DNA of 64,000 bases from a virus, in the IMG/VR virus record IMGVR_UViG_3300030430_004105, positions 1 through 64,000 of that record; one strand, written 5' to 3'. The notes under the pieces were generated by a model. That model saw nothing but the letters and a program-made list of their open reading frames with translations, was not told where the DNA came from and did not search any database. Numbering within the stretch: the first letter of the stretch is position 1; every line of letters begins with the position of its first letter. Position numbers and translations under genes: made by a program. This document shows positions 30,701-61,319 of this stretch, piece by piece.

Positions 30701-33700
30701 ATACTTTAACACGAGTATTGTTAGAGCCAGATGCCGATCCAGATAAAGGAGGACGATCTCTCTCTGCTCTCTCAAGCCACCAAAAACAGTTTTTGTTCTC
30801 AGGAGTTCCGCCAACTGGAGCATGTCCTTGCTTCCATGGATATAGGTGACGGTTAATCGTGTTCATGCCACCTTCTGGTGTTGGAGCCTTGAATTCAATC
30901 GTGGGGAACTTATTGGTGTATTTGTCTCTAGAGAAGACGTAGTTCTCGATAACATTATTAACACCATCAGAATGGGCTAAGGATGCAGGTACAAGCGCTA
31001 CTAGCATCTCGCCTAGTGCATCATCCAACCATTTGTAGTAATCGATGTATTTGTCCAAATCGGGCTCGTTAGACACCCTTTCGAAGAAGAGTTGACGCAA
31101 CTTGGACAGAGCCTTATACTCCATTCTGTATTTGTCAACAGGGCGTCCAATAAGATTATTGAAGTCTGTCACTGATGACATAAAGTTTATCATCTCTTGT
31201 GACACTGTTTGCGCCATGGACTTCTCAAAAGCGATGTAATATTCTTGTGGAAGTGTCTCTTTTGTGAAGACGATATCATCTTGAGTTCTGATCTCGATCA
31301 TGTCATCGCCTTGGAGGATCTCAGGATAAGTTGATCTTGCCGCTGTGATGTAATCTACATCTATAGCCTTCTCGTCACTGACAGGCATGAAATCTAACTT
31401 ACCAAAATAAAATTTGTTCTTTACTGCTTCAAAGTTGGCGTTGTATTTGACTGGTGCCGAGCCACTTGAAGCGTCTAGCACTATCGCCTGTCCGCTTGAA
31501 TCTGTCTTCGAGAGAGTTGAAAAATTCCAGTTAAGCACCAAAGTATCGATTTCTGGTACTTTTGGAGAGTTTGCATCAGTCTGTGCCAGATATGCTGATC
31601 TAAATGGAGAGTTGGCGCCATAATTTCTGCTATCGGAACTGTGTCTTTTGAGAGTTTCGTTCGATAACTCACTGTACCATAACCTAGTGAAACCTAATTT
31701 GATATCACTTCTGTCTACCAGAGATCCAGTGAAGTTTGTTCTTTTCGCTCCAGCGTAGATTCTTTTTGAATTTACTAGGAATGAGTGAGCACTGGCAGAT
31801 GCCACAGAAGAAGTAAGCACAAACGAGTTCAACTCAGAACTATCAACTGTGTTATATCCTATGAAGTGCAATTTATAATTACCATCATCTGAGGACGATA
31901 CTAAATTTGCAGTAGGGTGTTTGTCGTTTACTATCTTGAAAGCGAGAAGCCATTCGTTATTGTCATACATCCCATCATATAGAGAAGAAGAAAGGTGAAC
32001 ACCCAGTGCAGATGAACTCAAGTGAAATTTAACTCTTTTTGATTCAGTCTCATCTCTCTCCACGTACATTTGCATGTCGCACTTATCAGGATTTGCTATG
32101 GCATAATTTGTATTTGATGTAGCCTGATGCATACCAGCAATCACAGACTTTGTAAAAGGGGTGGCGAATCCAAACGGTTCATCAAAAGGCAACTTATTAG
32201 GCAATATTATCTGTGTTTCGAAAGTCAAAGGTATGAACTTTTCAAAATTAGACGTAGAGCCGGTTATGAAACTAATGTTAGATCCAGAAGGTATCTGGTA
32301 TATAGAGGCATTAAATCGATCTGGGTTGTTGAAATCAATAAACTTCTCTTTAACAGATCTAATAGAGTACCTGTCTTTTAATTCAAATTCTACATTGTTG
32401 CCGTAAAAATTAATCTTAACAACTTCTTCGTCAATACCAAATGCATGCAGTATGTTACGGAAACCTTTGTTAGTTCCCTTTTCTTTATATGTGTTTATTA
32501 GTCCAGAATACACATTTTGGTAAATCTGGTTCTTCACGTCGTGAAGTTTCATCTCGTAATTTTCATCTTCGCTTCTTTTGGCAAGTTTTTCTAGCACGGT
32601 AGCATCAGAAAACAATTCAGGGGCAACAAAACTAGCATTTGTTAAAAGCCTGTCAGCGAATGGAAGAGGCTTGACTGATCCAGAAGTGCTAGTATTTCCA
32701 TACTCATCGCCTGTTTTTGTTTGAAAATGTGCGTATATATCTTTCAGGCGATTAACTTCTCTTATATGCAGGTGCATATTGTCAAAATAAGATGCAATAA
32801 TTTGCGTTAGGTTCCTAAGATTTCCTTCTTTGACATCATCGTCTTCTAGAATCCATTGTGGCATTGTGTGAAAAATCGATGAGTTGTTGTACATATCGTA
32901 GTGTGATCCAGACGCCTCTAGTTCGGATAGAGTAGAAATGTAATCTGGATGGTTAGAACGGATGGTTGGATCTTTAAATTCTTTATCTATGACTTTTGCC
33001 AATACCATGGCAGAATCAGTGCTTCTCGCACCAGACACATAACCCGTCCAAGCGCCATTTGAAACTCTACCAGAATAGTCTAGAACATTTGAGTCGAAAC
33101 TAGCAGTCTGAGTGATTCCTTCATTGAATTTGTAATATACGCCAAGTTTAGTATTAGCCTCATCAGTGTTTGTTCCACCACCGATTGTATTCCAATAATA
33201 TCTACCAATTTGTTTTGCAGTTCTCTCGGTTTTCCAATATCTGAACTCGTCTAGCGAGCCTGAGAACTTACCTGCACCTGTCTGAATGGTAGGAGATCCA
33301 GAAGGAGCGGTTTGTAGCGCCCCAATAAATGAAATTATCGATCCTGTTATATTATTAAGAGCGGCAGATGAAATTGTCTGTTGATGGTTTAGTGCTCCGT
33401 TAATATACAGATTGGTTGACAGGTTAGAGCCTGTATTCTTCAAAGACAAGGCAATGTGAGTCCAATCTGTAATTGATGATGTTGTAACATTTTGCCCACA
33501 AGACTGATTCTGTATGCCGTTTGTTCCGCTCAAAGCAGTAAATAAGAACGGAGAACCGGCAGCAGCACCAGTAAGTTCTAATCGAAACCTACCATACTGT
33601 GCTGAACTGGACGGCTGTCCGTTCCACAAGTCAAATAAAACCTCTTTTTCTGTTTTTGATGTGTCAAAAGCAGGCTTTTTTACCCACATTTCAACCGTAA

Positions 33701-34232
33701 CACCCTCGTTTAAATTAAATTTGAGGTTTGATTCTCTTGATTTTACTGTGTCAAGTTTGTTGGCGTCACCAAATTGATTCTCAAGCCCTGATAAATCAGA
33801 TTTGTTAGGGCCGCCAAATGTCTTAATAAAAGTATTTGTTGTTGATTTCCCATATCCATCGATTATTCCACCACTAAGAGAACCCCATGTAGGATACCCT
33901 AAGTTGATGTGTCCGTTAAATCTAGGATATTTGTGATCGAATATGTATTTGTCAATGAATGTAGATTCATTTAGCCACTGTGCTTTTTCTGCCTCTGAGC
34001 CGTCATACGGGTACAGAGTCCTAATTCTGGCAAAAGCATCAGTATAGTATTTTTCTGCCGAGCCGTATATCGCAAACTGGCTTGGATCGCTAAAATCTAC
34101 GTTTGGATAAAACCTTTCTTCATCTATACTAGTTTGTTCGATAAAACTTTCAGACTCAACGTCTGCTGCCATATCTTCTAGACTTGATGATTTTATCACT
34201 TTTGTTGAATTATATAAATCTTTTAATTTCAT
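18717..34232 (-). CDS. Giant 5171-residue LamG-containing tail/baseplate structural protein
   Basis: A single 15.5 kb frame. Residues about 170-348 are a LamG/concanavalin-like domain (VEMWVKKP, WTHIALSL, GSLDEFRYW). Residues about 470-690 look like an assembly region (QIYQNVYSGLINTYKEKGT). Further LamG-like segments lie near 670-870 (GSLVDRSDIKLGFTRLW), 2160-2350 and 2550-2720 (DFTVCFWLKSDN, LAHLSIWD). Short 16-18 residue strand repeats fill about 1945-2075. About seven 100-residue repeats with the signature TDESGAKAGDTI fill about 2890-3705. A Lys-rich patch (GKKKKNNKKF) is near 4700 and a Gly-rich tail ends the chain. The gene overlaps 34229-35668 by ATGA and lies downstream of gp6. It probably forms a baseplate-attached fibre or adhesin that binds host glycans. 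The role is inferred from domains and position. Confidence 0.88.
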   Translation of the reverse strand: MKLKDLYNSTKVIKSSSLEDMAADVESESFIEQTSIDEERFYPNVDFSDPSQFAIYGSAEKYYTDAFARIRTLYPYDGSEAEKAQWLNESTFIDKYIFDHKYPRFNGHINLGYPTWGSLSGGIIDGYGKSTTNTFIKTFGGPNKSDLSGLENQFGDANKLDTVKSRESNLKFNLNEGVTVEMWVKKPAFDTSKTEKEVLFDLWNGQPSSSAQYGRFRLELTGAAAGSPFLFTALSGTNGIQNQSCGQNVTTSSITDWTHIALSLKNTGSNLSTNLYINGALNHQQTISSAALNNITGSIISFIGALQTAPSGSPTIQTGAGKFSGSLDEFRYWKTERTAKQIGRYYWNTIGGGTNTDEANTKLGVYYKFNEGITQTASFDSNVLDYSGRVSNGAWTGYVSGARSTDSAMVLAKVIDKEFKDPTIRSNHPDYISTLSELEASGSHYDMYNNSSIFHTMPQWILEDDDVKEGNLRNLTQIIASYFDNMHLHIREVNRLKDIYAHFQTKTGDEYGNTSTSGSVKPLPFADRLLTNASFVAPELFSDATVLEKLAKRSEDENYEMKLHDVKNQIYQNVYSGLINTYKEKGTNKGFRNILHAFGIDEEVVKINFYGNNVEFELKDRYSIRSVKEKFIDFNNPDRFNASIYQIPSGSNISFITGSTSNFEKFIPLTFETQIILPNKLPFDEPFGFATPFTKSVIAGMHQATSNTNYAIANPDKCDMQMYVERDETESKRVKFHLSSSALGVHLSSSLYDGMYDNNEWLLAFKIVNDKHPTANLVSSSDDGNYKLHFIGYNTVDSSELNSFVLTSSVASASAHSFLVNSKRIYAGAKRTNFTGSLVDRSDIKLGFTRLWYSELSNETLKRHSSDSRNYGANSPFRSAYLAQTDANSPKVPEIDTLVLNWNFSTLSKTDSSGQAIVLDASSGSAPVKYNANFEAVKNKFYFGKLDFMPVSDEKAIDVDYITAARSTYPEILQGDDMIEIRTQDDIVFTKETLPQEYYIAFEKSMAQTVSQEMINFMSSVTDFNNLIGRPVDKYRMEYKALSKLRQLFFERVSNEPDLDKYIDYYKWLDDALGEMLVALVPASLAHSDGVNNVIENYVFSRDKYTNKFPTIEFKAPTPEGGMNTINRHLYPWKQGHAPVGGTPENKNCFWWLERAERDRPPLSGSASGSNNTRVKVFQARNSVLNRSFTTPQHFAVKRDRVIHGGINYEDNKKRDYIWSATKEAAEYPLLYGQFGAFPLRYVVANSDMFQSLKDCTDERPVTEKIKRAFSAIDGFTAFHHAMSGGHDGLFKGGMVMPFNIMSSSVTTGYSAEVNGIPGGNQNIDIVNVHSDTTDNTNEIPMQSPFTERWVGGHQSRHSNINRGSDSPTNRAEGYKILINNILNESGSIGIVGADYPVPNSSFSTPPHFYVNQAKARYYRDERAKRPVNIKNIKTSERAVGNYQKTYQFVHTFGRSVNKTRFRDIGDSNLHNPINSALPETNLEASLISRGVGGNGNLASNFNTSSLYLGGVKTTTENSVAGTGKSVIVNRFSAPGGFETMSEVFLDMFGKEKSAYNSLPFRNLQVRGSGSGESGTIRLVDIHGNRFGLVVHLTRHAAQFGIDSVLGGTNPAYHKVNRNPKWDASEGEKDFDNYWIQHQIPQSDFQYKWVKASHTASLATSSLAGHILSDFSEPSGTSSIYPHENINYAVVSQSVTNQRMTGTTVYGYPSWEQVRNNDTNKNVVNKKSYGYSLETDGTAETIEESRITENIPIYTTMKFKDEIFRFVHPYVNMKYHFDNTKFDEEGVNPSVNETIYDNVLGYYKNEDHEAFSLKAIRVRQNLFPDFLKHTKYNVRHRHYFVSKFWTDGENVLYNTDTGENSYLGLDEVGRRQQNVTASLFSKEAINSQTKTFIDSGQLTNIIPSQSIWNMDSRINFTSSSPKVAASNSAGAPGVLQNQDHHFHNGLQTVLVTGSTATGSIITTKATVFGKHSSGSFTVHGMTPTGVKATGSFEFTSSATVLGTRHISKFYVSGAHVPAASASLQFNVTGATTVGQFSTASFEMSGASFAGSTTQQIFTFSGGGYTAGSAATANLKVLAIPRYGDRFAFIFSPKSISTITSTPSNYHETGLTFKTQTYHIVTDNNDHTDNYASNIHIPVYNPVSFIKITSNSMLSGGGFSGFTNDQGTTILFTMKNKTGINPSADGTYNILKIYRTGSGTHAIEILYQKSGANNHLICRRYYQNSNSNYIETRFTNFFAFSTNGNNAWHAIKLSISDTNPATEEWSAYSDGTEYTTKTTTYNGVVINTYAPSAPAGNYFVGDNSTNFDLSIGEIGIYDSTSAPSETDYYNSGEWTSLNDLAPSTNLVTYWSPGNYVSDDISSGDITDIGGGTNHLSITPSTATAVELLRSEASYSNKNLKSDQEFGLAWVEKLNASFTANSQPYTAEVFGNSSTVRILADDVGYDLPTAYDITKDVTVGETTTTYEPFSSTTYFGAQHNTISGEIVSNSNVNIKGGTHKIKHSSPLDEGNVYTFAGDGTANVYTPRDFLIAQQRSRSWRWTSTGLAQRMDVHNDSYTISGDFTVCFWLKSDNIASSTNQYILSFAEDSKDTTPSDQTIVVYYQYDDLYIRMYNSSGYYNEWKKEGIMKTTRFQFFSITFDVDSIQNDPELRINSALQSYDTTSKSNTGALREVNSIFVADSPFVNSSNFELQGCLAHLSIWDTLLGFTDIEEIYNKGYARNLQTHPKYFSNCLSWWVFSGGQDNPSTGDMPNFNATPSTVLGAEKTLSGITTPVTGVDSQAYTIKDENLTFVTPSHNSNVNLTFGVVHEGRPVPYTTGLSSLVHYTASTEHYFNHLEYSLESDSEIASANYTTLSNQATYVVTRNVQETDNDAVTLDTGSMFANTFNDFGTSANFTGGNAASGLGVAPYAASIQIRKGNDYTTGAVINDGNYLYININDFGNGTDTAGAGHTLNPVNIEITDYTNTANLYNKIVSAINNSSLVNVVATLQNTNEIRVDSVNAGGGNAYFLYEASTQVTINTATGGGAPSGSTTGHSIDIDGTTVNLASNNSANTSVNVVGVADSDVWSRMETVINSGFVPGWEVLNRSSVGNKATFNIVSKNRGEADNGVVTSSHSSFNVTNSGSNGQDDVGAQENDRIKFPIAGSQFRYLYIAYSDRTSENTTTRKYLDSTVYGTTHTNFWNALKAQLESAPWYYAASYVDNLNGTATFTVTSSESGATGNRTGAAYSSPTFTAGTNFSNGTDESGIRPGDDIIIFNPGTGGTKTFTPTTSDNSGVKFNVLSSSVNSSSAVWENLRSKINSNTTHTANTGSVVGGMMLFSITSSVTGTTNSNPNVTEDGANSGLSYNIIDAGSGGTDESGAKAGDTITIGGTTFTIVHDSSPGVHEINASPGVSANAFSNELTFKILNSSSFGSGGSSTSGMPTGRRFMKLTSSVTGTAQNVAFVRSSNNRTFFNLEGAAGGTTPIGIGDLDFIRFFTDTDGDGTETNLIFKVDLNGDESSTVVDKFIDASGYSGTDEEKSTLFWNDLSQSIKDNTVFDTISISPSNNIATFSITSSATGALFNSDITSVYNGADGVGFTIAANTDGGSDESGAKAGDTITINGVTLTLVTGSSAGAGQVLCGTNVNNLNTISNADYFNNLSASIKASASIASVTIEPVGDAARLHMTSSLLGTAGNIPITETGNTFAATGMSGGYDPVLLRFGEIIPQPRYNYPHVLTSPGSLRSPTAKSSLGLISAEYKLRSNHFNLTRSLGYATDGLYDNTSRWTTPDLSGLTPMDDDYNTWYENIRGHNKHFSLVPEFRISSHVKDIVAGESSEVEYFKKNYWLEITGTSADNGVTVNRNTINISGNEFLKEYSISSDIKNMENFIEENRGDASVAKLTLTCDAIMSFLPYDGFYPQSRTVQMCEAFADSYGRNFLAEEADESNTNLLFPDNNTFAQSRPIFDAIMSPGLLYNTIKSGMAVDYPIITSKLATASLSDPYGGKNYMINNEYFDDRLPFETLINPEAYLASKRIVDANPHISSSVNLRTEWNGIGDKNYKLMSNNFFAEAIGFFLEDGKTSRIISKPDNHPDFGVVIANHAGILPVYRSIFKVYKSKKQHPWVEFKGVTEVVKTDGTVPGTKYIDSNKVDKYYYRPPSGTNYFLREYENLTGTDLEYDLESVGYPRPQMNPYAEVETITMYSQPNAFGPPCAGGVAVEFKGLDTDDITPLTGKHNNTTYMMYDSTNGYNAPFTPPYYDGEAWAIYTFTPERAGKHTLSEILEKTTVDFLRYELNHESGSYGDRGTFGPQGFAINENAMQIDASFNLFKQVSVYPAKYSSQGVISEIDTNQQNAGKAWVIESKFETPILDFSKYLNRPHNAAFESEVSTSDIHTASMSLSGTRSEPDVLSAAHSSLSAVHELSGILNPIGMWHQYGEFPESDERGIFMQMMDVPDDYTILGTELTIANPKYTVVKPDINDCDGAGLNLGYNKNPGKTILPYFKKQEIRRKLVGKEDLSVLGSSIQLINKDDGIIIDAELNSAELTAVYGSIQNAQSSSGLFTIIQSSDKTMLTTNSAFTGGLYTVFINTTASSASYPQKSSGSYQGNWATAYYNYDRAGTYTPILIEAKDYASLSFDYGSFSRGLFEDFLKEFSIGVKYTDQSADLSDRADISCVDVDGKKQIVPVELEDKLVELNPSIKSFAKIDMSDKERRDFFGLKGKKKKNNKKFKGLKSRSVTRRFKLIPDNPAVASSPSAATTSSYDYPEPTFIRGSIRYNAGGGTGLAFENKVQMAPQNDKNFARNASTVRWGKFMHSEGSTISTKSLADLVGFSQEKVKMGVTAQTKIIREAVIAIPYIAIEDNERQFLTLDKFEVDKYLFQNNLVSKDRLARTPASRTGFESSIGQSVKDQIDKMQKYNLPPHLDFIENDIEPLPMYIFEFEKSLDREDLNGIWQGVRTESLKKVEFKQETISHDVNVDELLGGLFDENGDGIESLKDVKWMIFKVKQKGARNYDEKMESDLADGRFGFAQQNSDDTTSSMKLGYNWPYDFFSMVENVKVSVDITMLAEEKDTSNADNSIGYDLGIITTENIGTVGVNTAVVGGRSEDSTSVSLPEYKAEVVIDADNKILEYLPSDDTDSGGGGTPKGGDAENKPLVVSETTRRRVEREGDGSNPLGGSGINRGDGIDGRY
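23130..25560 (-). repeat. Tandem ~100-residue repeats inside the giant protein
   Basis: About seven diverged units. Each has GxDESGxxxGDxI followed by an F/T strand, then a W/F-N-xL-xxxI helix, and ends in F-x-(I/V)-TSSxTG. The clearest units carry GTDESGIRPGDDI, GTDESGAKAGDTI and GSDESGAKAGDTI. The pattern suggests a chain of small Ig-like or beta-sandwich modules forming a stalk. Confidence 0.75.
28010..28400 (-). repeat. Short beta-strand repeats inside the giant protein
   Basis: Five to six consecutive units of 16-18 residues, each with a core like GSFTVHG, GSFEFTS, SKFYVSG, LQFNVTG, ASFEMSG and IFTFSGG. They look like a small beta-roll or stacked-hairpin element between larger domains. 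Confidence 0.7.
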
Positions 34233-49443: not shown

Positions 49444-49905
49444 TCAGATATCGATTTTATTCAAATATTTTGTTACATAATCCGTACAAATGTAATCGTA
49501 CTTCTGTTCGTCAATATCCGGATATCTTTCTGGGAATAGAAACACAGTGTTTTTGCCACTAGTCTCTTTATTAGGGTATGCCCAGATATGCCCTTTAGAT
49601 GTTATTGTATAATCATCTTCTTGGTGCCAAAAACAATGTATTTCAGAAGCCAACATTCGCTCTAGAGCATCTTTGTTTTTAGCATGGCACCAAAGCCCTT
49701 CTTGCTTAAGGAAAGTCTCTTGGATTTGATATTTGGGACTGTCATGTCCTAACAAATATTTTTCATCGATATACCAAACATCTATTTCAACATGAAAACC
49801 AGAATCCAGCAATGCTTGGATCGCTGCTGGGTGGTTTTCTACGGTTGTATCTTCTCCTTCGGTATATGCTCTGTGAGAAATAATTATCACTCTGTTAATC
49901 CCCAT
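49444..49905 (-). CDS. GDPD-like (glycerophosphodiester phosphodiesterase-fold) protein, short
   Basis: A 153-residue protein. ISHRAYTEGEDTTVENHPAA followed by GFHVEIDVWYIDEKYLLGHD matches the N-terminal half of the GDPD TIM barrel, where HR, EN, E-x-D and HD form the metal and catalytic site. At 153 residues it is about half the usual length, so it is a compact or partial barrel. The start overlaps the RLP gene by 19 bases. It may hydrolyse a phosphodiester in a lipid- or teichoic-type glycan. The family is clear; activity is uncertain because of the short length. Confidence 0.7.
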   Translation of the reverse strand: MGINRVIIISHRAYTEGEDTTVENHPAAIQALLDSGFHVEIDVWYIDEKYLLGHDSPKYQIQETFLKQEGLWCHAKNKDALERMLASEIHCFWHQEDDYTITSKGHIWAYPNKETSGKNTVFLFPERYPDIDEQKYDYICTDYVTKYLNKIDI

Positions 49906-51077
49906 TTTTCAATTGCGATGTGATATTCTTCGCCATATTCCTTGTCAATTGATTGCCTCATAGCCATCGCTCCGCTCTTGGATCCATTAGGGTGTCCGTG
50001 AATCGCTCCTCCGACATTAGCCATATAGTCCAATCCAAAACGCTTGTTGATGGCTTTTACAAGCCCAGCATGCATACCACAACTGAGGGCTGGCATTACA
50101 TTTCTATTATGAAGAACGTCCAAAGTATTCTTAAGTTCGTCTTCGTTGTCAGACATATACCCTCCCCACATTCCAGCGTGAATAAAATCAACTCCCATCA
50201 AGCCAGCAAGATCACAAATAACATCCCAAGAGATGTGATAGTCATGAGATTTATTAGTCAAAACTTTGTCTCCGCTTTTCTGAAAGTGTATGAACATAGG
50301 AAGATCCAACTCTCTGATCGATTTGTAAACTCCCAGTCCACTCCAAAAATTAATGTGTACTGCGTTTGCTCCAAGTTCATATACCCTCTTTACTCTATCG
50401 ATAACATGATGAGGATCACAATTTATACAAACTGCATAGACAACATTCTTATCCTTCAAATATTCCATAATCTTTGGAACCCTTTCTTCGATTGGGCAGC
50501 ATGCAGGATTAGACATGATCTCATCTTCTTTGATGAAATTGATTCCACCTTCTACCATTTCTTTAACCATCTCTAGCAAGACATCACTGTTGACACCAAT
50601 CTTAGGCTTCACGATCCCTCCAAATAGTGGTTTATCGTGAGCACCAGTAAAGTCTCTAATACCATCAATTCCATATTTCGGCTTCATGAAATAATTATCT
50701 TCTATATGCTGTGGAAAGTCCACTTCCAAAAGATGACATTTGGTAACAATATCGATATCCATTTGTCCTCCCATAAACTGGCACAGCAAATGTGAAACGC
50801 CATCAGACTCAAAGTCAGTGTTGGCAATAGGAAAGGCAATTGTTACCTCTCCCTCTTGTTTTGTTTTAAGTACTTCTTCGTTACCAATCACAAAACAAGA
50901 GTGATTTTCAAACAACTCATCTGTTTCCCAATGGTTTCGGACATTAGGGTTTCCAACACTCTGTCCTATGCTCAAACCCCATGCAGCATCTCTTAAAGTT
51001 TCATTAGAAGATAAAAAATATCTACATAAAATGTATTTCTCTCTATCTATCTCGTCTATTGTTCTAAAAATTTTCAT
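49887..51077 (-). CDS. RubisCO-like protein (form IV type, RLP)
   Basis: A 396-residue protein in the RubisCO large-subunit superfamily. KPKIG gives K157/K159, equivalents of K175/K177. GGINFIKEDE gives the carbamylation-type lysine K183 with D185 and E186, equivalents of K201/D203/E204. IHF (H264) matches H294, DFIHAG (H300) matches H327, LSCGMH (S332) matches S379, and GGAIHGHP matches the G403/G404 loop. R295 and K334 of true RubisCO are replaced (by F and in a WGGYMSD loop), so CO2 fixation is unlikely. The N-terminus (GLSIGQSVGNPNVR) is RLP-like. Known RLPs are enolases, isomerases or decarboxylases of keto-sugar phosphates. It is coupled to the nucleotidyltransferase by ATGA and lies in a glycan cluster. 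The substrate is unknown. Confidence 0.9.
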   Translation of the reverse strand: MKIFRTIDEIDREKYILCRYFLSSNETLRDAAWGLSIGQSVGNPNVRNHWETDELFENHSCFVIGNEEVLKTKQEGEVTIAFPIANTDFESDGVSHLLCQFMGGQMDIDIVTKCHLLEVDFPQHIEDNYFMKPKYGIDGIRDFTGAHDKPLFGGIVKPKIGVNSDVLLEMVKEMVEGGINFIKEDEIMSNPACCPIEERVPKIMEYLKDKNVVYAVCINCDPHHVIDRVKRVYELGANAVHINFWSGLGVYKSIRELDLPMFIHFQKSGDKVLTNKSHDYHISWDVICDLAGLMGVDFIHAGMWGGYMSDNEDELKNTLDVLHNRNVMPALSCGMHAGLVKAINKRFGLDYMANVGGAIHGHPNGSKSGAMAMRQSIDKEYGEEYHIAIEKWGLTE

Positions 51078-51796
51078 AATTCCTCCAATTTTGTTAAAAA
51101 ATTATTTAGTTCTTCAGGAGTTCCCATTCCCCTCATTTCATACACTGGATAAGGTTTAACAACCCCTCCTCTTGAGTTTATTAATATATTATACACTGGG
51201 CATATATAAAACTCATTGTTAAATCTAACGTTTCTAGATATCATCTCTTCGGCACAAGAAACATACTCTGATCCTTTAGCCCAATAATACATTCCAACTG
51301 TTGCAAAGTTACTTATCACTTGCTTTTCGGCAACTTGTGTAATGTTTCCTGTATTATAGTCTACTCTTGAATACGAGTGCTTTGGGCTATCAGATAAGAA
51401 AAACGGTATGCAACCATCCAAACCTTTACAATAGTTCTGGAAGTGTTTAGGATCCCAATCAACCCATTGATCCGCATTTGCAATAAATAATGGCTCGTCA
51501 TTATCAATATACTCTTTGGCTAGCAATGTTGTACATGCAGCACCCTCAGTTAAGCCATCTATCTCAACTAAAACAGAATTTTTTACACAATTTCGCAAAT
51601 ACTCTTTCATCTTTGGGTATTTTTCCATGTGTTGTTTTTGGACTATGAAAATGTGTTCATTTTCAGGTAATCCAATATTTTCAATGACTCTTTGAATCAT
51701 TGGTTTTCCGGCTACATCTATTAAAGGTTTAGGATCTGAGTAACCTGCTTTAAAAAATCTAGATCCTGCTCCTGCTAATGGTATTAATACTTTCAT
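51074..51796 (-). CDS. Sugar-1-phosphate nucleotidyltransferase
   Basis: A 240-residue Rossmann-like NTP transferase. The N-terminal LIPLAGAGSRF followed by KPLIDVAGKPMIQRV is the nucleotide-binding signature. LFIANADQWVDW supplies the metal-binding Asp region. Such enzymes make NDP-sugars for surface glycans. It is tightly coupled to the RLP gene downstream, which suggests the two act in one pathway. The exact sugar cannot be read from the sequence. Confidence 0.88.
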   Translation of the reverse strand: MKVLIPLAGAGSRFFKAGYSDPKPLIDVAGKPMIQRVIENIGLPENEHIFIVQKQHMEKYPKMKEYLRNCVKNSVLVEIDGLTEGAACTTLLAKEYIDNDEPLFIANADQWVDWDPKHFQNYCKGLDGCIPFFLSDSPKHSYSRVDYNTGNITQVAEKQVISNFATVGMYYWAKGSEYVSCAEEMISRNVRFNNEFYICPVYNILINSRGGVVKPYPVYEMRGMGTPEELNNFLTKLEEL

Positions 51797-51805
51797 TTTT
51801 TCTCC

Positions 51806-52549
51806 TTAAAGTTTGTATGCCCATCTTACCAATGGCACCATTCCATCTTCTTTATTTTTGTAATAATTGTCATATTTTTTTTGTATCATAAAGTTACCCA
51901 TGTCTTCGAATAACCCCAGTTCTCTTAAATGCCTAGCGGCAATCATATGGTTAGAATCTAGTCCGTATGTTTCTAAAATATCATAAATTCTAGTAAAATT
52001 ATACATATTATCGGAATTTGCAACAAACAATAGATCCCCAACTTCATAGTAATGAGACTCTCTATCGCAGCAAGAACCACGACATATTTCTGGATTGTAC
52101 ATATGTATTGGATCTGAGCCATTGTGATAAAATCTTTTCATGTCTAATCTGGAATCTTCAAAGTCAATCTTTTCTTGCAATGCTAAATCAAATCTAGATA
52201 ATAATACGATATCGTACTTTATATTATGTTTTTGTTCATACTTTCTCATAACATCTAAAGATCGTTTGATAGAATACCAATTGCTTTTTATGGCAAATTG
52301 TCTAGTACTAAGATTAGAGCCAAAATCAATTTGATCTTGAAAAATACATCCTTTTGGATTATACATAGAAACCAACTCATCTTTAAATTGTCTATCCCAG
52401 CAATGAAAAAACACATCAACATCATTATGATCTAACAAGTTCTCTTTCCAATGTTTAAACCCAATCTTTGCCGCATTCATATTCTGCCGTCCTAAAACAT
52501 ACTTTTTATTATTTCCTACTTTTCCTCTCATACATAATGCTATTTTCAT
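51806..52549 (-). CDS. Putative glycosyltransferase-like protein
   Basis: A 247-residue protein beginning MKIALCMRGKVGNNKKYV. VDVFFHCWD, KSNWYSIKRSLDVMRKYE and IVLLSRFDLAL suggest a Rossmann-type transferase with a possible metal-binding acidic site (RFDL). I have seen similar sequences in phage and bacterial glycan clusters without a firm family. It sits among sugar genes, so a glycosyltransferase role is likely but unproven. Confidence 0.6.
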   Translation of the reverse strand: MKIALCMRGKVGNNKKYVLGRQNMNAAKIGFKHWKENLLDHNDVDVFFHCWDRQFKDELVSMYNPKGCIFQDQIDFGSNLSTRQFAIKSNWYSIKRSLDVMRKYEQKHNIKYDIVLLSRFDLALQEKIDFEDSRLDMKRFYHNGSDPIHMYNPEICRGSCCDRESHYYEVGDLLFVANSDNMYNFTRIYDILETYGLDSNHMIAARHLRELGLFEDMGNFMIQKKYDNYYKNKEDGMVPLVRWAYKL

Positions 52550-53437: not shown

Positions 53438-54026
53438 GTTTTATTTCCTTTAAGCAATTTTCGTGAAAGAAGTACACAGTGTCTTGTTTGTGCTTCAAAG
53501 GTAGTGTTTCTTCTGGGTGTAAGTTCATGAGTTTACCTCTCATTACTTTTGAAACCATCTCATGACATATAAAAATAATTTTTTGTCCCTCATATTTATC
53601 TAAAACAGATGATATTCTCTCACTTAATAATTCGTAACTCTCTCCCATCGGCACAATGTAGTGCCAATAATTACCTTTTTTGTACCTTCTGTCCAAAAAC
53701 CCCGGAAAGTCTCTTTCTATCTCTTCTTCTGTCTTTCCTTCCCAAAGCCCAAAGCAGTGTTCCTTTAAGTTTTCTTCTGTTATACACTGCATAAAATCAA
53801 CACCTAGAGATTCACATATTATGCTAGCATATTGCTGACATCTCCATTGAGGTGATGTAATAAATTTATATTCTCCTATATCTTTTCCTTCAAACTCCCT
53901 TTTGATCAAATCTGCTGTTCTTTTTGCTTGATCAATTCCTTTAATAGTCAGAGGAGAGTCTTTTTGTCCCTGCTTTCTTTTAGCCAAATTCCACACAGTC
54001 TGTCCATGTCTAATAATATAAATCAT
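53430..54026 (-). CDS. Histidine phosphatase (phosphoglycerate mutase-like)
   Basis: A 198-residue protein. IIRHGQTVWN at the N-terminus supplies the catalytic phospho-histidine in RHG. SPQWRCQQYA provides the Arg of the substrate pocket, HCFGLWEG the acidic motif, and FICHEMV near residue 152 the second histidine. Such enzymes dephosphorylate small sugar phosphates or phosphoglycerate. Next to NeuB it could remove the phosphate of a phosphorylated nonulosonate. It overlaps NeuB by ATGA. The family is secure and the substrate unknown. Confidence 0.88.
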   Translation of the reverse strand: MIYIIRHGQTVWNLAKRKQGQKDSPLTIKGIDQAKRTADLIKREFEGKDIGEYKFITSPQWRCQQYASIICESLGVDFMQCITEENLKEHCFGLWEGKTEEEIERDFPGFLDRRYKKGNYWHYIVPMGESYELLSERISSVLDKYEGQKIIFICHEMVSKVMRGKLMNLHPEETLPLKHKQDTVYFFHENCLKEIKHV

Positions 54027-54865
54027 ACGTACTTCATATCCTTGAGAAAATCCAATTCCTCTTTATGAAACTCAGTCAGTCCAGCATTATTCTCTAGAAT
54101 CAATTTATCTATCGTTTCATTCATTTCTCTGTACTTTTCTGGTGTCAGAGCGCAACCTAAATGGTGGATACCCCAATCTAAAGAGAGAGAAAAGTGTCTT
54201 TCAATCATTCTGGCGCCTTGGAGAGTTGCTAAAATAGATGGTGCATATCCAATTTCATGCCCAGAATACCCTATCTTTATATTATCACTTTCAAATTTGT
54301 TCCGAAGGTGTGTTATATAAGTGATATTTGACTTGCCATCTGGTGTTGGGTAAATCGAAACTGTATGAAGCAAGAATGCTTTAAGTTTAAATCTATTAAT
54401 TTTATTAACTAACTTTGAAACAAACTCATCAGACTTTCCACCCAAACTTATTATTAGTGGCTTATCCTCCTTAGCGCACAAAGTCATAACCTTATCAACT
54501 AATTCTGTTTTACCAGCATCCATACTAGCAACTTTGTAGAAAGGAGGATCAAAAGTTTTAATGAATTCAAGCCCCTCTTCGTCATGTACAGTGCAGAACC
54601 ATCTTATTCCTTTTGAATTGCAGTAATTTGCTAAATATTCAAAATCTTCTTTACTTAACTCCAAAGATCCTCGATATGTCTTAAAATCAAAATTTCTCCA
54701 TTTTTTACCATCGTCTTTGTAATATTTTTTAACATTCTTGAATTTAAGTTTAATTAGATTTGCCCCACCGGATACGGCTTCGTCAATCATTTTTTGAGCA
54801 ATTTTAACCATACCTAGGTGGTTAATACTCAACTCTGCCACCATAATAGGTTTTTCAATTACCAT
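54023..54865 (-). CDS. NeuB-like nonulosonic acid synthase
   Basis: A 280-residue TIM barrel that condenses phosphoenolpyruvate with a hexose, as in N-acetylneuraminate synthase. MVAELSINHLG at the N-terminus is the active-site glutamate and NHxG motif. GANLIKLKF, FYKVASMD, LIISLGGKS, GYSGHEIG and RHFSLSLDWGIHHLGCALTP follow in the usual order. The usual C-terminal antifreeze-like SAF domain (about 60 residues) is absent, since the protein ends just after the barrel. NeuA-like and GT42-like genes lie nearby, so a sialic- or legionaminic-type sugar is likely. The gene is coupled on both sides. Confidence 0.9.
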   Translation of the reverse strand: MVIEKPIMVAELSINHLGMVKIAQKMIDEAVSGGANLIKLKFKNVKKYYKDDGKKWRNFDFKTYRGSLELSKEDFEYLANYCNSKGIRWFCTVHDEEGLEFIKTFDPPFYKVASMDAGKTELVDKVMTLCAKEDKPLIISLGGKSDEFVSKLVNKINRFKLKAFLLHTVSIYPTPDGKSNITYITHLRNKFESDNIKIGYSGHEIGYAPSILATLQGARMIERHFSLSLDWGIHHLGCALTPEKYREMNETIDKLILENNAGLTEFHKEELDFLKDMKYV

Positions 54866-55509
54866 CTTCCCATTTCCTCCACTATTTGTTCAAATGTTTT
54901 TTCCGTTTCATTAATCAAGAAACGAACTCTTTTTTCTCTTTCTAATTGTTCCAGTGCAATCGATTTAAATCTATCTTTAAGATCAGATCTTACAATTATA
55001 ACACCATCTCTACTAGCAAACGAGTAATCATTTGGGGTTATCTTCACCCCCTCTATTTCAATATCAATCTGATATCTCGTCAAAGCCCAATAGTCTAAAG
55101 CATCAATTGGATTTTCGTCTTTACAAAACACAGGAAAATCTAGTTGATCAATAATATCGATATCTCTAACTACTCCATCTGTCACAAAACCTTTTGCTCC
55201 GAGTTTCTTATATATTAAAGAAGTTATATCACCACTATGTGCTACTTTGTCGTCATTCGCTTGTAAATAGACAATTGGATTATTCGCAAACATACTTGGC
55301 TTATACATATCAAGCCTTATATTGTCTAGTTTTGAATAATCTACTTTCCAATCTCGTACCACTTCTCCATAAGTAGTGAAACAATCTCCCTGAATAATCG
55401 AGGTATAGCCACACTTGGGCTTTATATTAATATAAAAATCTTTATATTGTTCACCCATCAGCCTTAACGAATCATATACTATACCCATATAAATATCATT
55501 TGGTAACAT
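54859..55509 (-). CDS. RraA-like (HMG/CHA aldolase family) protein
   Basis: A 216-residue protein. GDITSLIYKKLGAKGFVTDGVVRDIDII followed by FPVFCKDENPID and KITPNDYSFASRDGVIIV matches the RraA-type fold. The DGxxRD signature binds divalent metal and the Arg polarises the keto-acid. The family includes 4-hydroxy-4-methyl-2-oxoglutarate aldolase and oxaloacetate decarboxylase activities as well as RNase E regulators. Here it sits between NeuB and NeuA, so a keto-acid aldolase role in sugar metabolism is more likely than RNase control. The role is inferred from context. Confidence 0.8.
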   Translation of the reverse strand: MLPNDIYMGIVYDSLRLMGEQYKDFYINIKPKCGYTSIIQGDCFTTYGEVVRDWKVDYSKLDNIRLDMYKPSMFANNPIVYLQANDDKVAHSGDITSLIYKKLGAKGFVTDGVVRDIDIIDQLDFPVFCKDENPIDALDYWALTRYQIDIEIEGVKITPNDYSFASRDGVIIVRSDLKDRFKSIALEQLEREKRVRFLINETEKTFEQIVEEMGRW

Positions 55510-56164
55510 TCATCAACCTCTCAATTAATTCTAGATCTTCATTGACATTTATATCTAAAGATTCAATTTTTGAAACCCCTATCATCATTGGGCTCTCTCC
55601 AACTCTTGTCTTGTTTTTAAGTAGAGAATCTACAGTTATGCCGTAAAGTCCGTGTGTCTCCATTTTCAAGATATCTAATTCAAAACTGTTAGGCAGTTCT
55701 TTGGTTGAAAAATTATAAGATTTCCCATCTTTCCAGAAATACTCTTGAACATCTACAGTCGTGAAAAAAGAATCGTGATGAGGAAGTCCGTGGTTAACAA
55801 ATCTTTCAATGCAAAAATCTATAGTTTCAGATCTTAACAATGGTGAAGTGCAAAATGTCTGCAATAGTATGTCACATTCGTCAACGCTGTGAAGTCCGTA
55901 TATCATCATTTCATTGGCACCTATGTCATTTGTTGCGAGACTAGGGTGTCTTTTGATTAATTTCAATCCTCTAGAAAAAAGCGACTTTACACTAGCAATG
56001 ATATCGTCACTTTCAGTATCTAGATAAACGTTGTCTATGTTTTCACATTTGAGTGCTTTTTCACATGCAAGAAAAACCAATGTCTTTCCATTGATTTCGT
56101 ACAAATTTTTATTTTTTATCCTTTTGCTAGTTCCTTTAGCAGGGATAATTAAATTGATTTTCAT
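55496..56164 (-). CDS. NeuA-like CMP-sugar synthetase (cytidylyltransferase)
   Basis: A 222-residue protein. LIIPAKGTSKRIKNKNLYE is the NeuA/KdsB nucleotide-binding loop. NVYLDTESDD, KRHPSLATND, ILLQTFCTSPLL and THGLYGI are the other expected motifs. It activates a nonulosonate with CTP before transfer to a glycan. Its start is coupled to the GT42-like gene. NeuA and NeuB flank the RraA-like gene, which supports a nonulosonic pathway. Confidence 0.88.
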   Translation of the reverse strand: MKINLIIPAKGTSKRIKNKNLYEINGKTLVFLACEKALKCENIDNVYLDTESDDIIASVKSLFSRGLKLIKRHPSLATNDIGANEMMIYGLHSVDECDILLQTFCTSPLLRSETIDFCIERFVNHGLPHHDSFFTTVDVQEYFWKDGKSYNFSTKELPNSFELDILKMETHGLYGITVDSLLKNKTRVGESPMMIGVSKIESLDINVNEDLELIERLMNVTK

Positions 56165-56993: not shown

Positions 56994-57998
56994 TTATACG
57001 TTTAAGTTTGTCATTTTATTCAAATTAATTTGCTCTCTTCTTAGATCTTTCTCGTACATCTCCATTGCAAGTTCTTCAAAATCATATTCAGGCACCCAGC
57101 CCAATGTCTTCATCATCTTGGATGGATCTCCCCATAACTTTGGCACTTCGCAAGGACGATAAAACTTAGGATCAATGACTACGTGATCTTTGATGTCCAG
57201 CCCAGCATAGTCAAAAACATACTCTAAAAATTCTTGAACTGAGTTAGTTTTACCAGTTGCTAGCACATAATCATCTGCTACATCGTGCTGAAGCATCATC
57301 CACATTCCTTTAACATAATCAGCAGCATGTCCCCAGTCTCTTTGGGCAGACAAGTTTCCAAGCCTTAGTTCATCTTGTAAGCCCAACTTGATTCTTGCAG
57401 CGGCTTTGGTAATCTTTCTGGTTACAAAGTTTTCTCCTCGTCTTGGAGATTCATGATTGAAAAGAATACCAGAGCATGCGTAAATCCCATAAGACTTTCT
57501 ATAAGTGCTTACCATATGGTGTGCTGCTAATTTAGCACATGCATAAGGCGAGACAGGAGAAAAGTGGGTATCAAGTCCTTGCGGACACTGAGTATTATCA
57601 CCAAACATCTCGCTCGTAGATGCCTGATAGAACTTGCAGGATGGCTTCTGGAGCCTTATTGCCTCTAGGGCATACAAACACCCCATCATATTGATCTCAG
57701 TCGTACTAACAGGCGTTTTAAAGGACGTACCGACATGTGATTGAGCAGCCAAATTATAGTATTCATCTGGTTGGTATTCAGATATCAAGCGATAAAGTGA
57801 AGAAGAATCTGTTACATCTGCCTCTTCTAAGATAAAATTACCGTCATCAAGTAAATGAGTTATGTTCTGGCATTTGTTTTCAAAGTCTGAAACTGTTCTT
57901 CGATATGTGCCTATAACCTTGTAGCCCTTATCAATCAGAAGATCTGAAAGATAAGAGCCGTCTTGTCCAGTTACTCCAGTAATTATTGCAGTTTTCAT
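56994..57998 (-). CDS. gmd: GDP-mannose 4,6-dehydratase
   Basis: A 334-residue extended SDR. GVTGQDGSYLSDLLIDKGYKV binds NADP, YNLAAQSHVG and STSEMFG are characteristic of Gmd, and YACAKLAAHH provides the catalytic Tyr and Lys. LGNLSAQRDWGHAADYV and the C-terminal segment complete the fold. It makes GDP-4-keto-6-deoxymannose, precursor of GDP-fucose or GDP-rhamnose. The reductase that would follow is not in the window. It is coupled by ATGA to the upstream glycosyltransferase. Confidence 0.94.
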   Translation of the reverse strand: MKTAIITGVTGQDGSYLSDLLIDKGYKVIGTYRRTVSDFENKCQNITHLLDDGNFILEEADVTDSSSLYRLISEYQPDEYYNLAAQSHVGTSFKTPVSTTEINMMGCLYALEAIRLQKPSCKFYQASTSEMFGDNTQCPQGLDTHFSPVSPYACAKLAAHHMVSTYRKSYGIYACSGILFNHESPRRGENFVTRKITKAAARIKLGLQDELRLGNLSAQRDWGHAADYVKGMWMMLQHDVADDYVLATGKTNSVQEFLEYVFDYAGLDIKDHVVIDPKFYRPCEVPKLWGDPSKMMKTLGWVPEYDFEELAMEMYEKDLRREQINLNKMTNLNV

Positions 57999-59263
57999 AA
58001 TAAAAACTCCTCTTCATCTGGGCTGTCAAATTGTATTCCTAGTTCTTCGTTAAAACGATTAAACCAATACTGCTCACCTTCATAAGAATCTCGAAGTTGC
58101 TCAGCCATTTCTGTCCATTTGTCAATATTTTCATAAACATCTCTCATTTTACTTTTAGCATCAGCATCATCAATATAAGCCCAACTAGATTCAGCATGAA
58201 GAACTCCATCCCAAACTGCATTTTGAGGAACCTGTCTCAGTTCACACTTAACAGCAGCAAACTTTTTCTTGTATGTTGTGATTTTGCCCCTAGTTTTTCC
58301 ACCTTTGAGTTTTCCGGGAGGGTTAATGTCCTCTTTGATGGCTAAAAAGTCTAAGTGTCCACTCCAATCTGTTGCTATAACAGGAAGCCCATTACAAGAA
58401 GCCTCATATAAAGGAAGTCCAAAACCTTCACCATGCGTAAAAGACACAACAGCCTTTACTTTAGGATGATTATATAAACCTTGCATTTGTTCGTCAGATA
58501 AATTTCCATGAAGTAGATTTATAGAACATTTCCACCCTCCTTCTTTTGCTGTTTTCGAAACTTGCTCAAATTGTTTTTTAATGTTATGGTAGTCCATAAC
58601 AGAATCGTTTGCCTGATGAACTTTGAAAAGCAAGCCAACTTCTTCATTCTTGAACTCTTCAAGAAAATTATGTAAAACAGCATCTACATTTTTTCGTGGG
58701 CCTAACTGAGCAACACATAGAAAGTTGAAATCATGTCTAAGGTTTAGATCCAGTTCTTCTACTTCGATATCTCTCTTAGGAAAACCAACGAACGACATAG
58801 GTGTATCGCATTTGTATTCAGGTATCTTTTGTCCAGTCTTGGTATCAGTTGCTTCATAAGAAGTGTCTCTATAAACTTCCATGCTGTGTTTAGAAATTGT
58901 GATAATTTTATCAACCTCATTTCCCTTTACCAACCATTCACCAGCAACTCTGTTAGTTTCAATACCTGCTGTATATCCAATATCATGAGGAGATAAACGC
59001 TTCCATTCGTTAGGTATTGTACACTGCACGGTTGCATCATATTGCCCATTGTTCTGCATATACAAAACTGTTTTTTGAAGCAACGCATCAATCAGTTTTC
59101 TTTCCTGATCGTCTCTCCAAATCCATCCTGATCTTCCCCAACTAATATTGTGTACATATAAATCAACTGCGGGGTTTGACATCAATGCCCTAAGAGCAAA
59201 TCTGCCCATTTCACCATATCCGGAACGTGAAAGTACCGGTGCCACTAATAATATTTTTTTCAT
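57995..59263 (-). CDS. GT4 glycosyltransferase
   Basis: A 422-residue GT-B fold protein. The N-terminal Rossmann half begins KKILLVAPVLSRSGYGEM. The C-terminal half has FLCVAQLGPRKN and EGFGLPLYEASCNGLPVIATD, the E-x7-E donor-site motif of family GT4. It is flanked by a second GT4 and Gmd, giving a coupled group that probably builds a glycan on the virion or host surface. The acceptor is unknown. Confidence 0.87.
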   Translation of the reverse strand: MKKILLVAPVLSRSGYGEMGRFALRALMSNPAVDLYVHNISWGRSGWIWRDDQERKLIDALLQKTVLYMQNNGQYDATVQCTIPNEWKRLSPHDIGYTAGIETNRVAGEWLVKGNEVDKIITISKHSMEVYRDTSYEATDTKTGQKIPEYKCDTPMSFVGFPKRDIEVEELDLNLRHDFNFLCVAQLGPRKNVDAVLHNFLEEFKNEEVGLLFKVHQANDSVMDYHNIKKQFEQVSKTAKEGGWKCSINLLHGNLSDEQMQGLYNHPKVKAVVSFTHGEGFGLPLYEASCNGLPVIATDWSGHLDFLAIKEDINPPGKLKGGKTRGKITTYKKKFAAVKCELRQVPQNAVWDGVLHAESSWAYIDDADAKSKMRDVYENIDKWTEMAEQLRDSYEGEQYWFNRFNEELGIQFDSPDEEEFLL

Positions 59264-60525
59264 GCTACCTCCAATAGTCTATAGTTCAAATGCTTTCTGG
59301 TTTCCCAAGAACCTTCTTCTTCATATATTCGCTGCATCAAATCAACCCAAGTTTTTTCGAAAACTTCAAAACTGTAATTTTTTATCACATGTTCTCTACC
59401 TGCTCTTCCTAGGGCATCTCGATACTCTTGATCAGCCATGTACATATCTCTTAGGGCGGACGAAACCTTCTTACCATTTAGTCGATCTTCGTATATGTAA
59501 GGCACTTCTTGAGATCCAATAATCGCCTTAGAATCAGGCTCCAGTCCAATCCCGAACCAAGTCTCTCCGTCTGTAACCTGTTCTTGTAGTCCGCCTGTCA
59601 TATTCACAATTATTGGTGTCCCACAAGAAAGAGATTCAAGCGTTGCCAGTCCAAATCCTTCAGCATCTGATATGTTGATCGTACAGTCTGCTAGATTATA
59701 AAACATTGCTAGATTTTCCATTTGAACTTTGTTAGTAGAAAACAAAATCTGTCCATCAATTAATCCTAAGTTTTGAACAATAGCATTGAGATCTTGCCCA
59801 TATCCATCTTTGGGATCTGTGTGCATGATTAATGATGCTTTATCATGTCCAACTTGATCTAGAAAGTCTTTAAACCAATAAATCAAAGAACCGCTCTGTT
59901 TTCTTCTAGCATTTCGATTGTTCCAAAAAAACAAAAACTTTCCTTTTGAATCGTACTGTTCATCAAACTGTGCTCTAAACTCTTCTATCTGTTCTTTTGG
60001 CAAAGGCTTAAAAAAGTTAGAATCAACAGCATGCGGCACATACTGCTCTTTCACATCAGGTGCAACATTTTGCACAATATCACTTGTAACTTTTGATATA
60101 GTTGCAATAAAATCGTTAGATTCGTAAAACCTCTGGTTATATTTTGGTAGTGGGTAGTTGTCCCACACATGATAATATACCATGGGGATTAAAGAACGAA
60201 TCTCTGCCTCTATTTCCCAAAGCCAGCCATAAAAACGAGGATCAGTCATAAAATACAAAATATCAGGACGTTCATTTCTGATAATAGATCTTACGATATC
60301 CTGTGTGCCATAGCCATCGACAGGGAAGATTTTCCATCTTTCACCCCATTGTTCCGTGATCTGTGGCTTATGATCCGGATGCTTGATTGCCCCACCAAGA
60401 CTGACTACATCAAATTTATCAGACTTAAGCAGGGCTTCTATAATATATTTAGTTTGAGTTCCGACACCCGATGGCGATAGTGGGTGATCAGATATAGTCA
60501 AAACTTTAATTCTTTTTTCCGACAT
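59260..60525 (-). CDS. GT4 glycosyltransferase
   Basis: A 421-residue GT-B fold protein. I start it at ATG 60525, where AAAGGAGAAG precedes MSEKRIKVLT; an earlier start at 60549 overlaps the upstream nuclease. SPSGVGTQTKYIIEALL is the N-terminal site and EGFGLATLESLSCGTPIIV the GT4 donor site. It is coupled to the next GT4 by ATGA. The sugar and acceptor are unknown. Confidence 0.87.
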   Translation of the reverse strand: MSEKRIKVLTISDHPLSPSGVGTQTKYIIEALLKSDKFDVVSLGGAIKHPDHKPQITEQWGERWKIFPVDGYGTQDIVRSIIRNERPDILYFMTDPRFYGWLWEIEAEIRSLIPMVYYHVWDNYPLPKYNQRFYESNDFIATISKVTSDIVQNVAPDVKEQYVPHAVDSNFFKPLPKEQIEEFRAQFDEQYDSKGKFLFFWNNRNARRKQSGSLIYWFKDFLDQVGHDKASLIMHTDPKDGYGQDLNAIVQNLGLIDGQILFSTNKVQMENLAMFYNLADCTINISDAEGFGLATLESLSCGTPIIVNMTGGLQEQVTDGETWFGIGLEPDSKAIIGSQEVPYIYEDRLNGKKVSSALRDMYMADQEYRDALGRAGREHVIKNYSFEVFEKTWVDLMQRIYEEEGSWETRKHLNYRLLEVA

Positions 60526-60539
60526 TTCTTCTCCTTTTG

Positions 60540-61319
60540 TTACGGACAATGTTTGGTTCCCTTGAACTCACAATTAGCACAAGAAAGCCTATTCTTAATA
60601 TAAACACCATTATCAATATTGTAAAGCGCTCTTGACAATAATTGCATAGCATTTTCTGTTCTTCTCTTTCCAGAAGTTACTTTAAATAATTCTACTTCGT
60701 TAGTCTTGGCGGTTCGCTTTAGAAGCCCAAAGTGACATTCAATGTTTTTTGGATCAATGCCATGCTTCATTGCATAGTAATGCTTATAAAAAATTAATTG
60801 ATAGACAACCATTTTGTCTGATCTTCTTTTAGCATCCCATCCCCATGAACAAGACTTCCAATCCAGAATATGATAAGTCTCGCCTTTTTTGACAACCAAG
60901 TCGATATATCCTTTAAATTTGAAAGGATTCCCATCATAGTGGGAAATATCCTCAAAAATCTCTTCTTCGCACTTAATAATCTCATAATTCTCACCAAAGT
61001 AAGAATCTAACTTTACTTTATACTTGTCTACCAAGTTTTCTCCTTGAGATCTGAACTGATCAAAATGATTGTCTTTGATTTCTTCAATCAACAAGCCTCT
61101 TTCTTTTCCAAATGCTCTACCGAAATAGTCTTTTAATTCTGTCTCATCGATCTCATTTTCTAAATGTTTCTCAATTGTCTCATGCAAAGCAGAGCCAAAA
61201 GCAGTGTAAATGTTTCCAGAAAATGATCCCTCAACCTTATCGATTGAAGCCAGTTTGTGATAGAATGGGCATTTAACCCAGTTTTTAAGTTGTGAAAAAG
61301 AAATATATTTGTTAGTCAT
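60540..61319 (-). CDS. RecB/Cas4-like PD-(D/E)XK nuclease with Fe-S cysteines
   Basis: A 259-residue protein. FKGYIDLVV, then YHILDWKS (D-x-K), is the PD-(D/E)XK core. A single N-terminal Cys (KCPFYH, C18) and a C-terminal C-x2-C-x7-C (C247, C250, C258) suit a 4Fe-4S cluster like Cas4 and AddB. It probably trims DNA ends in recombination or repair. No cas genes are near, so it is not a CRISPR component. Its ATG overlaps the stop of 61319-61648 by one base. Confidence 0.85.
   Translation of the reverse strand: MTNKYISFSQLKNWVKCPFYHKLASIDKVEGSFSGNIYTAFGSALHETIEKHLENEIDETELKDYFGRAFGKERGLLIEEIKDNHFDQFRSQGENLVDKYKVKLDSYFGENYEIIKCEEEIFEDISHYDGNPFKFKGYIDLVVKKGETYHILDWKSCSWGWDAKRRSDKMVVYQLIFYKHYYAMKHGIDPKNIECHFGLLKRTAKTNEVELFKVTSGKRRTENAMQLLSRALYNIDNGVYIKNRLSCANCEFKGTKHCP

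Follow-up and report, generated by a model that had tools for sequence, protein, structure and literature searches.

Introduction

Besides CO2 fixation, the RuBisCO superfamily has a handful of known functions in salvage or catabolism. RuBisCO-like proteins (RLPs) have been described as enolases, isomerases or decarboxylases, with reactions that include the enolisation step of methionine salvage and the decarboxylation/transcarboxylation of 3-oxo-isoapionate-4-phosphate (PMC6302742). Unassigned marine RuBisCO homologues in the GOS data fell into novel groups, comprising 58 sequences after 90% filtering (PMC1821046). RuBisCO-superfamily genes have been reported on viral contigs as 'rbcL' or 'RbcL-like' (PMC12607003, PMC12615777, PMC8506154) and were read there as CO2 fixation: viral rbcL is listed under carbon fixation (PMC8506154, PMC12615777), a set with 25-36% identity to known genes includes one for which activity was reported (PMC12615777), and one landfill rbcL was placed among 'RbcL-like' proteins (PMC12607003). 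In the literature, most subscription journals aside, we found no paper that ties an RLP to glycan activation, and nothing relevant on the RuBisCO superfamily together with a nucleotidyltransferase in phage or on 'IV-GOS'.

The DNA analysed here (the window, 64,000 nucleotides) is part of an IMG/VR virus record of 83,218 bases, IMGVR_UViG_3300030430_004105. The record encodes a T4-type late sigma factor, a baseplate wedge protein, SbcC/D-like recombination subunits and PhoH, in agreement with the T4-type phage of the original prediction, which had been made from the letters of this DNA; matches of the baseplate protein include T4-like phages, among others. A single ORF of 5171 aa lies in the tail-gene region (window 18717-34232).

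The RLP of the window can be compared with several described systems. Active-site positions were assigned through motif alignment to form I RuBisCO and are given in spinach numbering. MtnW (2,3-diketo-5-methylthiopentyl-1-phosphate enolase; PDB 2oej, 2oek and 2oem), the best single-sequence PDB match with 27-28% identity, shares the fold, K175, the metal triad and the P1-side residues S379, G381 and G403, but reads K-G-V/M where the phage RLP has KPK, and the RLP further differs by QKSGD, GGY, a nucleotidyltransferase partner and the absence of salvage genes. The OiaX and sugar-acid RLPs, with which PDB 3nwr groups here, have the fold, the triad, K175 and presumably a sugar-phosphate chemistry in common with it; in contrast to the phage RLP they keep R295/K334-type residues, lack K177 and in most cases have a four-carbon acid sugar kinase next to them. 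Form III RuBisCO (8dht, 3kdo, 2cwx) gives the best global fold agreement (TM-score 0.83-0.89) and carries the KPK motif, whereas E60, T65, W66, N123, H294, R295 and K334 are missing from the RLP. On the side of the partner gene, cyanophage modules (phrog_3980; S-CAM9, B23, Bellamy, S-SKS1) contain the same family of sugar-phosphate nucleotidyltransferase (NTPt) in a glycan cluster, with GDPD-like genes in most and a cupin in some, but they have no RLP, and their NTPts form fusions with HAD, RpiB or RibB.

Results and Discussion

The RLP gene, its fold and its clade

The RLP gene (49887..51077, minus strand, 396 aa) is exactly the open reading frame of the original prediction, and the opposite, plus-strand reading of this interval is riddled with stops. 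Pfam RuBisCO_large (PF00016), the model suggested for checking the assignment, gave no poor match (E 1.7e-33, 116.6 bits versus a curated cut-off of 30.1); NCBIfam models for RuBisCO and RLPs match with scores far under their curated cut-offs, and solved RuBisCO and RLP chains were retrieved in a PDB sequence search starting at E 1e-36. The AlphaFold2 model, built with 44 sequences (pLDDT 94.9), predicts the full RuBisCO fold with the N-terminal alpha/beta domain and TIM barrel of the superfamily, and its best PDB matches are all RuBisCOs or RLPs with TM-scores of 0.81-0.89 on the query. Identity among 26 viral orthologues ranges from 53 to 88%, dN is 0.08, and synonymous change is saturated, with 173 synonymous versus 48 non-synonymous differing codons. 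Conservation and fold go well beyond chance and confirm that the gene is real.

Placed in a tree with MtnW and OiaX-type RLPs, as had been suggested, the protein falls into a clade of its own. This clade is monophyletic (100/100) and separate from MtnW, OiaX-type RLPs, form I and form III RuBisCO in a tree that sampled 38-40 clade members, with forms II, IV-Photo and IV-NonPhoto left out. Membership in MtnW (TIGR03332, 137 versus 513.6 bits; separate clade, 100/100) and in OiaX (NF042437, 123 versus 700 bits; separate clade) was rejected. The phage-type subclade (100/99) nests next to cellular members and includes two SAR11 copies. Both (L030 and L032) stem from single cells, and their placement suggests gene exchange between phage and host, as far as the tree can tell. 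Within a known superfamily this is thus a real new clade, both widespread and unusual.

Active-site residues

The three residues of the superfamily's metal triad, K201-D203-E204, are present by alignment as K183 (50529..50531, minus strand, the position of the carbamylated Lys K201), D185 (50523-50525, minus strand) and E186 (50520-50522, minus strand), all invariant in the alignment. The KPK motif (50601..50609, minus strand), with K157 and K159 equivalent to K175 and K177, occurs in all aligned clade members, while K177 is missing from MtnW- and OiaX-type RLPs in the alignment. These residues had been named in the original prediction together with SCGMH and GGAIHGHP, and the whole set is nearly invariant in the family. 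Retained are K175, K177, K201, D203, E204, H327, S379, G381 and G403. Substituted are E60 (Gly38), T65 (Asn43), W66 (Pro44), N123 (Gly), H294 (Gln266), R295 (Lys267), H298 (Asp270), K334 (Tyr307) and G404 (Ala). From the set of 12 positions that mark a bona fide RuBisCO (E60, T65, W66, N123, H294, R295, H327, K334, S379, G381, G403, G404) the RLP thus keeps H327, S379, G381 and G403 alone.

The QKSGD motif (Q266-D270; 50268..50282, minus strand), which holds the changes H294Q, R295K and H298D, is diagnostic of the clade and common to most of it, Legionella and Azospirillum included. It also corrects two details of the earlier reading: the His of an 'IHF' signature does not correspond to H294, as the aligned H294-R295 site is Q266-K267, and R295 is indeed gone, but it is replaced by Lys267 and not simply lost. 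The predicted loss of the loop-6 residue K334 holds, with Tyr307 in its place (50157..50159, minus strand, by alignment). The residue pattern makes enolisation via a carbamate/metal centre plausible and carboxylation not. A CO2-fixing RuBisCO appears ruled out by the substituted carboxylase residues. With a predicted fold that is kept, a substituted active site and a position outside forms I and III in the tree, the assignment as a form IV-type RLP that probably does not fix CO2 is supported.

Two further positions covary within the clade. Gln105 together with His300 was found in 104 of 143 distinct RLPs and the reciprocal His105 with Gln300 in 32 of 143, and no mixed combination was read; three additional His-type RLPs also carry IQTGM. 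The His105/Gln300 proteins (L075, L089, L110 and about 30 more) often have QSSGA too. The reciprocal swap probably marks two RLP subtypes with different substrates, judged from the residues, and it probably goes back to one or few evolutionary events.

Conserved partner genes

Directly upstream of the RLP lies the NTPt gene (51074..51796, minus strand; PF00483 E 1e-10; best PDB match by profile 4evw, E 2e-35), and NTPt stop and RLP start share a 4-bp ATGA overlap in the window. No NCBIfam model reached its cut-off to indicate the specificity of the NTPt, and the closest structure, 4evw, is named merely NDP-sugar pyrophosphorylase. When ORFs were clustered around 115 RLP loci, which are related to one another and not independent, an NTPt was present at 109, a small GDPD-like protein at 82 and a cupin at 79; within the 93 viral loci an NTPt was near the RLP in 89. 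The gene immediately upstream is a cupin in 63 and an NTPt in 16 of these viral loci (together 79/93), and the median gap is -4 nt. In the reverse test, loci retrieved with the cupin as seed contained the RLP in 74 of 80 cases and the NTPt in 77. That the RLP is coupled to a sugar nucleotidyltransferase within a glycan cluster, as predicted, is borne out by the PF00483 match and the 109 loci. The pair of RLP and NTPt also occurs in distant cells, namely Legionella, Elusimicrobia, Verrucomicrobia and SAR11, and by HMM in Azospirillum. In SAR11 (L035-L041) NTPt genes lie on both sides of the RLP, and one of the two has diverged so far that Pfam gives no match.

The cupin carries the metal motif HXH(X)4E(X)6G, and characterised cupins match it weakly. 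It is absent from the window's record, which may be incomplete, and is not found near the Legionella RLP copies. The GDPD-like gene follows the RLP (49444..49905, minus strand), and its true start is likely the GTG at 49890, which overlaps the RLP stop. Its conserved residues are H11-R12, E23-N24, E40, D42, H54 and K76; matches are weak, both to a GDPD profile (E 6e-5) and by Foldseek, where the best hit is a GDPD (E 3.5e-3, TM 0.50). This partner is only suggestive of phosphodiester chemistry. Equally suggestive and no stronger as a link to such chemistry is a LicD phosphotransferase gene near RLP and NTPt in three Legionella, on the opposite strand with two genes between. As a general transferase of the system LicD was rejected, since this weak association occurs in Legionella only, on the other strand and across two intervening genes.

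Glycan cluster and cassette exchange

Upstream of the NTPt, the glycan cluster continues with a glycosyltransferase-like protein of no known Pfam family (51806..52549, minus strand), a neighbour in 40 of the 115 loci. It also holds a short NeuB (54023-54865, 280 aa), an RraA-like aldolase (54859-55509) and a PseF-like, CMP-sugar-type cytidylyltransferase (55496-56164), all on the minus strand. Together these three form an unusual nonulosonate-type set (54023-56164) in the variable part of the cluster. The original prediction had linked the RLP to nonulosonic acids. None of the three is among the RLP's 30 most frequent neighbours at the 115 loci, where the conserved partners are NTPt, cupin and the GDPD-like protein, and the link is not supported; a specific nonulosonic-acid role was rejected because NeuB-type genes do not belong to the conserved neighbourhood. 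Among 105 other neighbours that were sampled, methyltransferases (FkbM and others), epimerases, GDP-mannose dehydratase and glycosyltransferases are abundant.

NTPt and RLP form a cassette (49869..51802, minus strand) that was compared with other phages at the nucleotide level. Identity reaches 79.6% for L229/L003 and 70.9% for L005, the matching stretches end at almost identical points, and the flanks show little similarity to L229/L005. The sister phages L232/L233 have no RLP but match the window with 78.6% nucleotide identity over 60600-57034, where the shared flank encodes a GDP-mannose 4,6-dehydratase-like protein and two GT4-type glycosyltransferases (56994..60549, minus strand), and with 82.6% over 49890-47637, so that homology picks up again at 49890, the start of the GDPD-like gene. 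Their interval in between encodes a glycosyltransferase-like protein, HAD, an NTPt (50% identical) and a 487-aa protein. Shared cassette ends, unlike flanks and sisters that lack the RLP show that NTPt and RLP move together, as one exchangeable unit. The 487-aa protein (L232:6714-8177) has no confident Pfam family and takes the place of the RLP, with the NTPt on one side and the GDPD-like gene on the other.

The NTPt family without the RLP

Loci retrieved with the window's NTPt as seed contain an RLP in 4 of 27 cases and none in 23. In cyanophages that lack the RLP, members of this NTPt family are linked to or fused with HAD phosphatases, RpiB (E 4e-32) or RibB/DHBP synthase (E 5e-65). RpiB fusions were seen in two phages, where the NTPt is distant, and a RibB fusion in one (S-SKS1), where the NTPt nests among RLP-linked NTPts (SH-aLRT 97). 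One locus, L110, carries RLP and RibB together in an S-SKS1-like layout, plus a transaldolase and a HAD protein. The fusions are hidden by their annotation: the NTPt-RibB of S-SKS1 (L122:6001-7428) is annotated only as 'DHBP synthase' and the NTPt-RpiB of Bellamy (L120:8989-10146) only as 'phosphatase'.

Proposed role and alternative explanations

We propose, with a probability of about one half, that the RLP is a non-carboxylating enzyme that works in a surface-glycan (or phage-receptor-modifying) pathway of the phage, an isomerase or epimerase that feeds the NTPt; it most likely helps to build unusual surface sugars. The enzyme would bind a metal via the carbamylated-Lys/Asp/Glu triad and enolise a phosphorylated ketose with a short chain, for which a pentulose phosphate akin to ribulose 5-phosphate is the likeliest candidate. 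It would then put the proton back elsewhere, which would make it an isomerase or epimerase. Its product sugar phosphate would then pass to the coupled NTPt, which would make an NDP-, perhaps CDP-activated unit for transfer by the transferases of the glycan cluster. RpiB, RibB and RuBisCO all belong to ribulose phosphate chemistry via enediols, and because they share these we infer that the NTPt receives a short ketose phosphate from the RLP. Several points count against this role. The phosphate-side changes H294Q and R295K mean that the substrate could differ from ribulose phosphates, known RLP decarboxylases carry out other chemistry on the same scaffold, RpiB and RibB fusions are few, and the NTPt family is far broader than the RLP (4/27), so that the RLP need not feed the NTPt directly. 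If true, a conserved clade that is carried by phages and linked to sugar activation would add to the superfamily a biosynthetic role and an enzyme open to testing.

The RLP might instead be an OiaX-like decarboxylase or retro-aldol enzyme whose substrate is the phosphate of a branched or keto sugar acid, with the NTPt activating the product. The closest functional RLP analogues on branched C5 sugar acids are indeed decarboxylases/transcarboxylases (PMC6302742) and K175 and the triad are retained, but H294, R295 and K334, which OiaX-type RLPs keep, are all changed in the phage RLP. These enzymes also form a separate clade and mostly adjoin a four-carbon acid sugar kinase, not an NTPt, and sugar-acid enzymes are not among the conserved neighbours at the 115 loci, which makes this reading unlikely. 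We are just as doubtful that the RLP sits in the glycan cluster independently of the NTPt, for instance in regulation or salvage, and that their co-occurrence is hitchhiking in a hypervariable cassette. The RLP is seldom found without the NTPt, even in cellular genomes far from phage cassettes, and overlaps translationally with its upstream gene, although cassette exchange does happen and most NTPts come without an RLP.

More improbable still is a chain resembling methionine salvage, with RLP enolase, HAD phosphatase and cupin dioxygenase acting on a methylthio- or other sugar phosphate. RLP, HAD and metal-motif cupin are the same three folds as MtnW, MtnX and MtnD and recur together, and MtnW is the best single PDB sequence match; however, the score of 137 bits stays far from the MtnW cut-off of 513.6, the clades are separate, the constant partner is the NTPt, and the cupin, which resembles characterised cupins weakly, was found neither in the window's record nor beside the RLPs of Legionella. 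That the gene is a viral auxiliary metabolic gene for carbon fixation, as viral rbcL annotations assume, is hardly tenable. Against the retained RuBisCO fold and triad, and the activity reported for one viral rbcL (PMC12615777), stand the substitutions at E60, T65, W66, N123, H294, R295, H298 and K334, the position outside forms I and III, and neighbourhoods in which Calvin-cycle genes are not common.

Distribution and relation to viral rbcL genes

At least 354 IMG/VR stretches encode relatives of the RLP by profile scan, the best 80 of which were retained. Among 50,697 records of isolate phages no RLP was found, even at E values up to 1; a BFVD fold search returned no full-length viral RLP, and PHROGs holds no family that matches it. 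Form I RuBisCO was likewise found in no phage or viral contig, in searches with one proteobacterial query and a contig scan that reaches close relatives only. Cellular relatives are sporadic (22 loci), with hosts that include SAR11 single cells, Patescibacteria, DPANN archaea, Elusimicrobia, Verrucomicrobia, Azospirillum and Legionella, and they are rare where genomes were counted (1/77 Legionellaceae and 2/197 SAR11-order genomes, all of them the seed genomes).

More tentatively, the clade may be an anabolic branch of the superfamily that would produce a ketose phosphate (C4-C5) or branched sugar phosphate of an unusual kind, activated by a dedicated NTPt for surface glycans; large aquatic phages would be the main agents of its spread and reshuffling, SAR11 bacteria would have exchanged it with them, and a good part of viral 'rbcL' would be this same enzyme. 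Some of the viral rbcL genes published under carbon fixation may belong to the clade, which may also include some of the novel GOS RuBisCO groups (PMC1821046). A virus with an 'RbcL-like' gene had already been reported (PMC12607003), although we found no paper on the glycan context of such a gene. The RLP is best left out of counts of viral carbon-fixation genes, and E60, R295 and K334 should be checked in viral rbcL matches before these are entered in such counts. Two individual copies deserve mention. At one locus (L192:6287-7453) the RLP is broken into two ORFs, a damaged copy or a sequencing error, and in a contig filed as a Sphingobacteriales MAG (L050) the RLP module lies among phage-like neighbours, so that this contig is probably viral.
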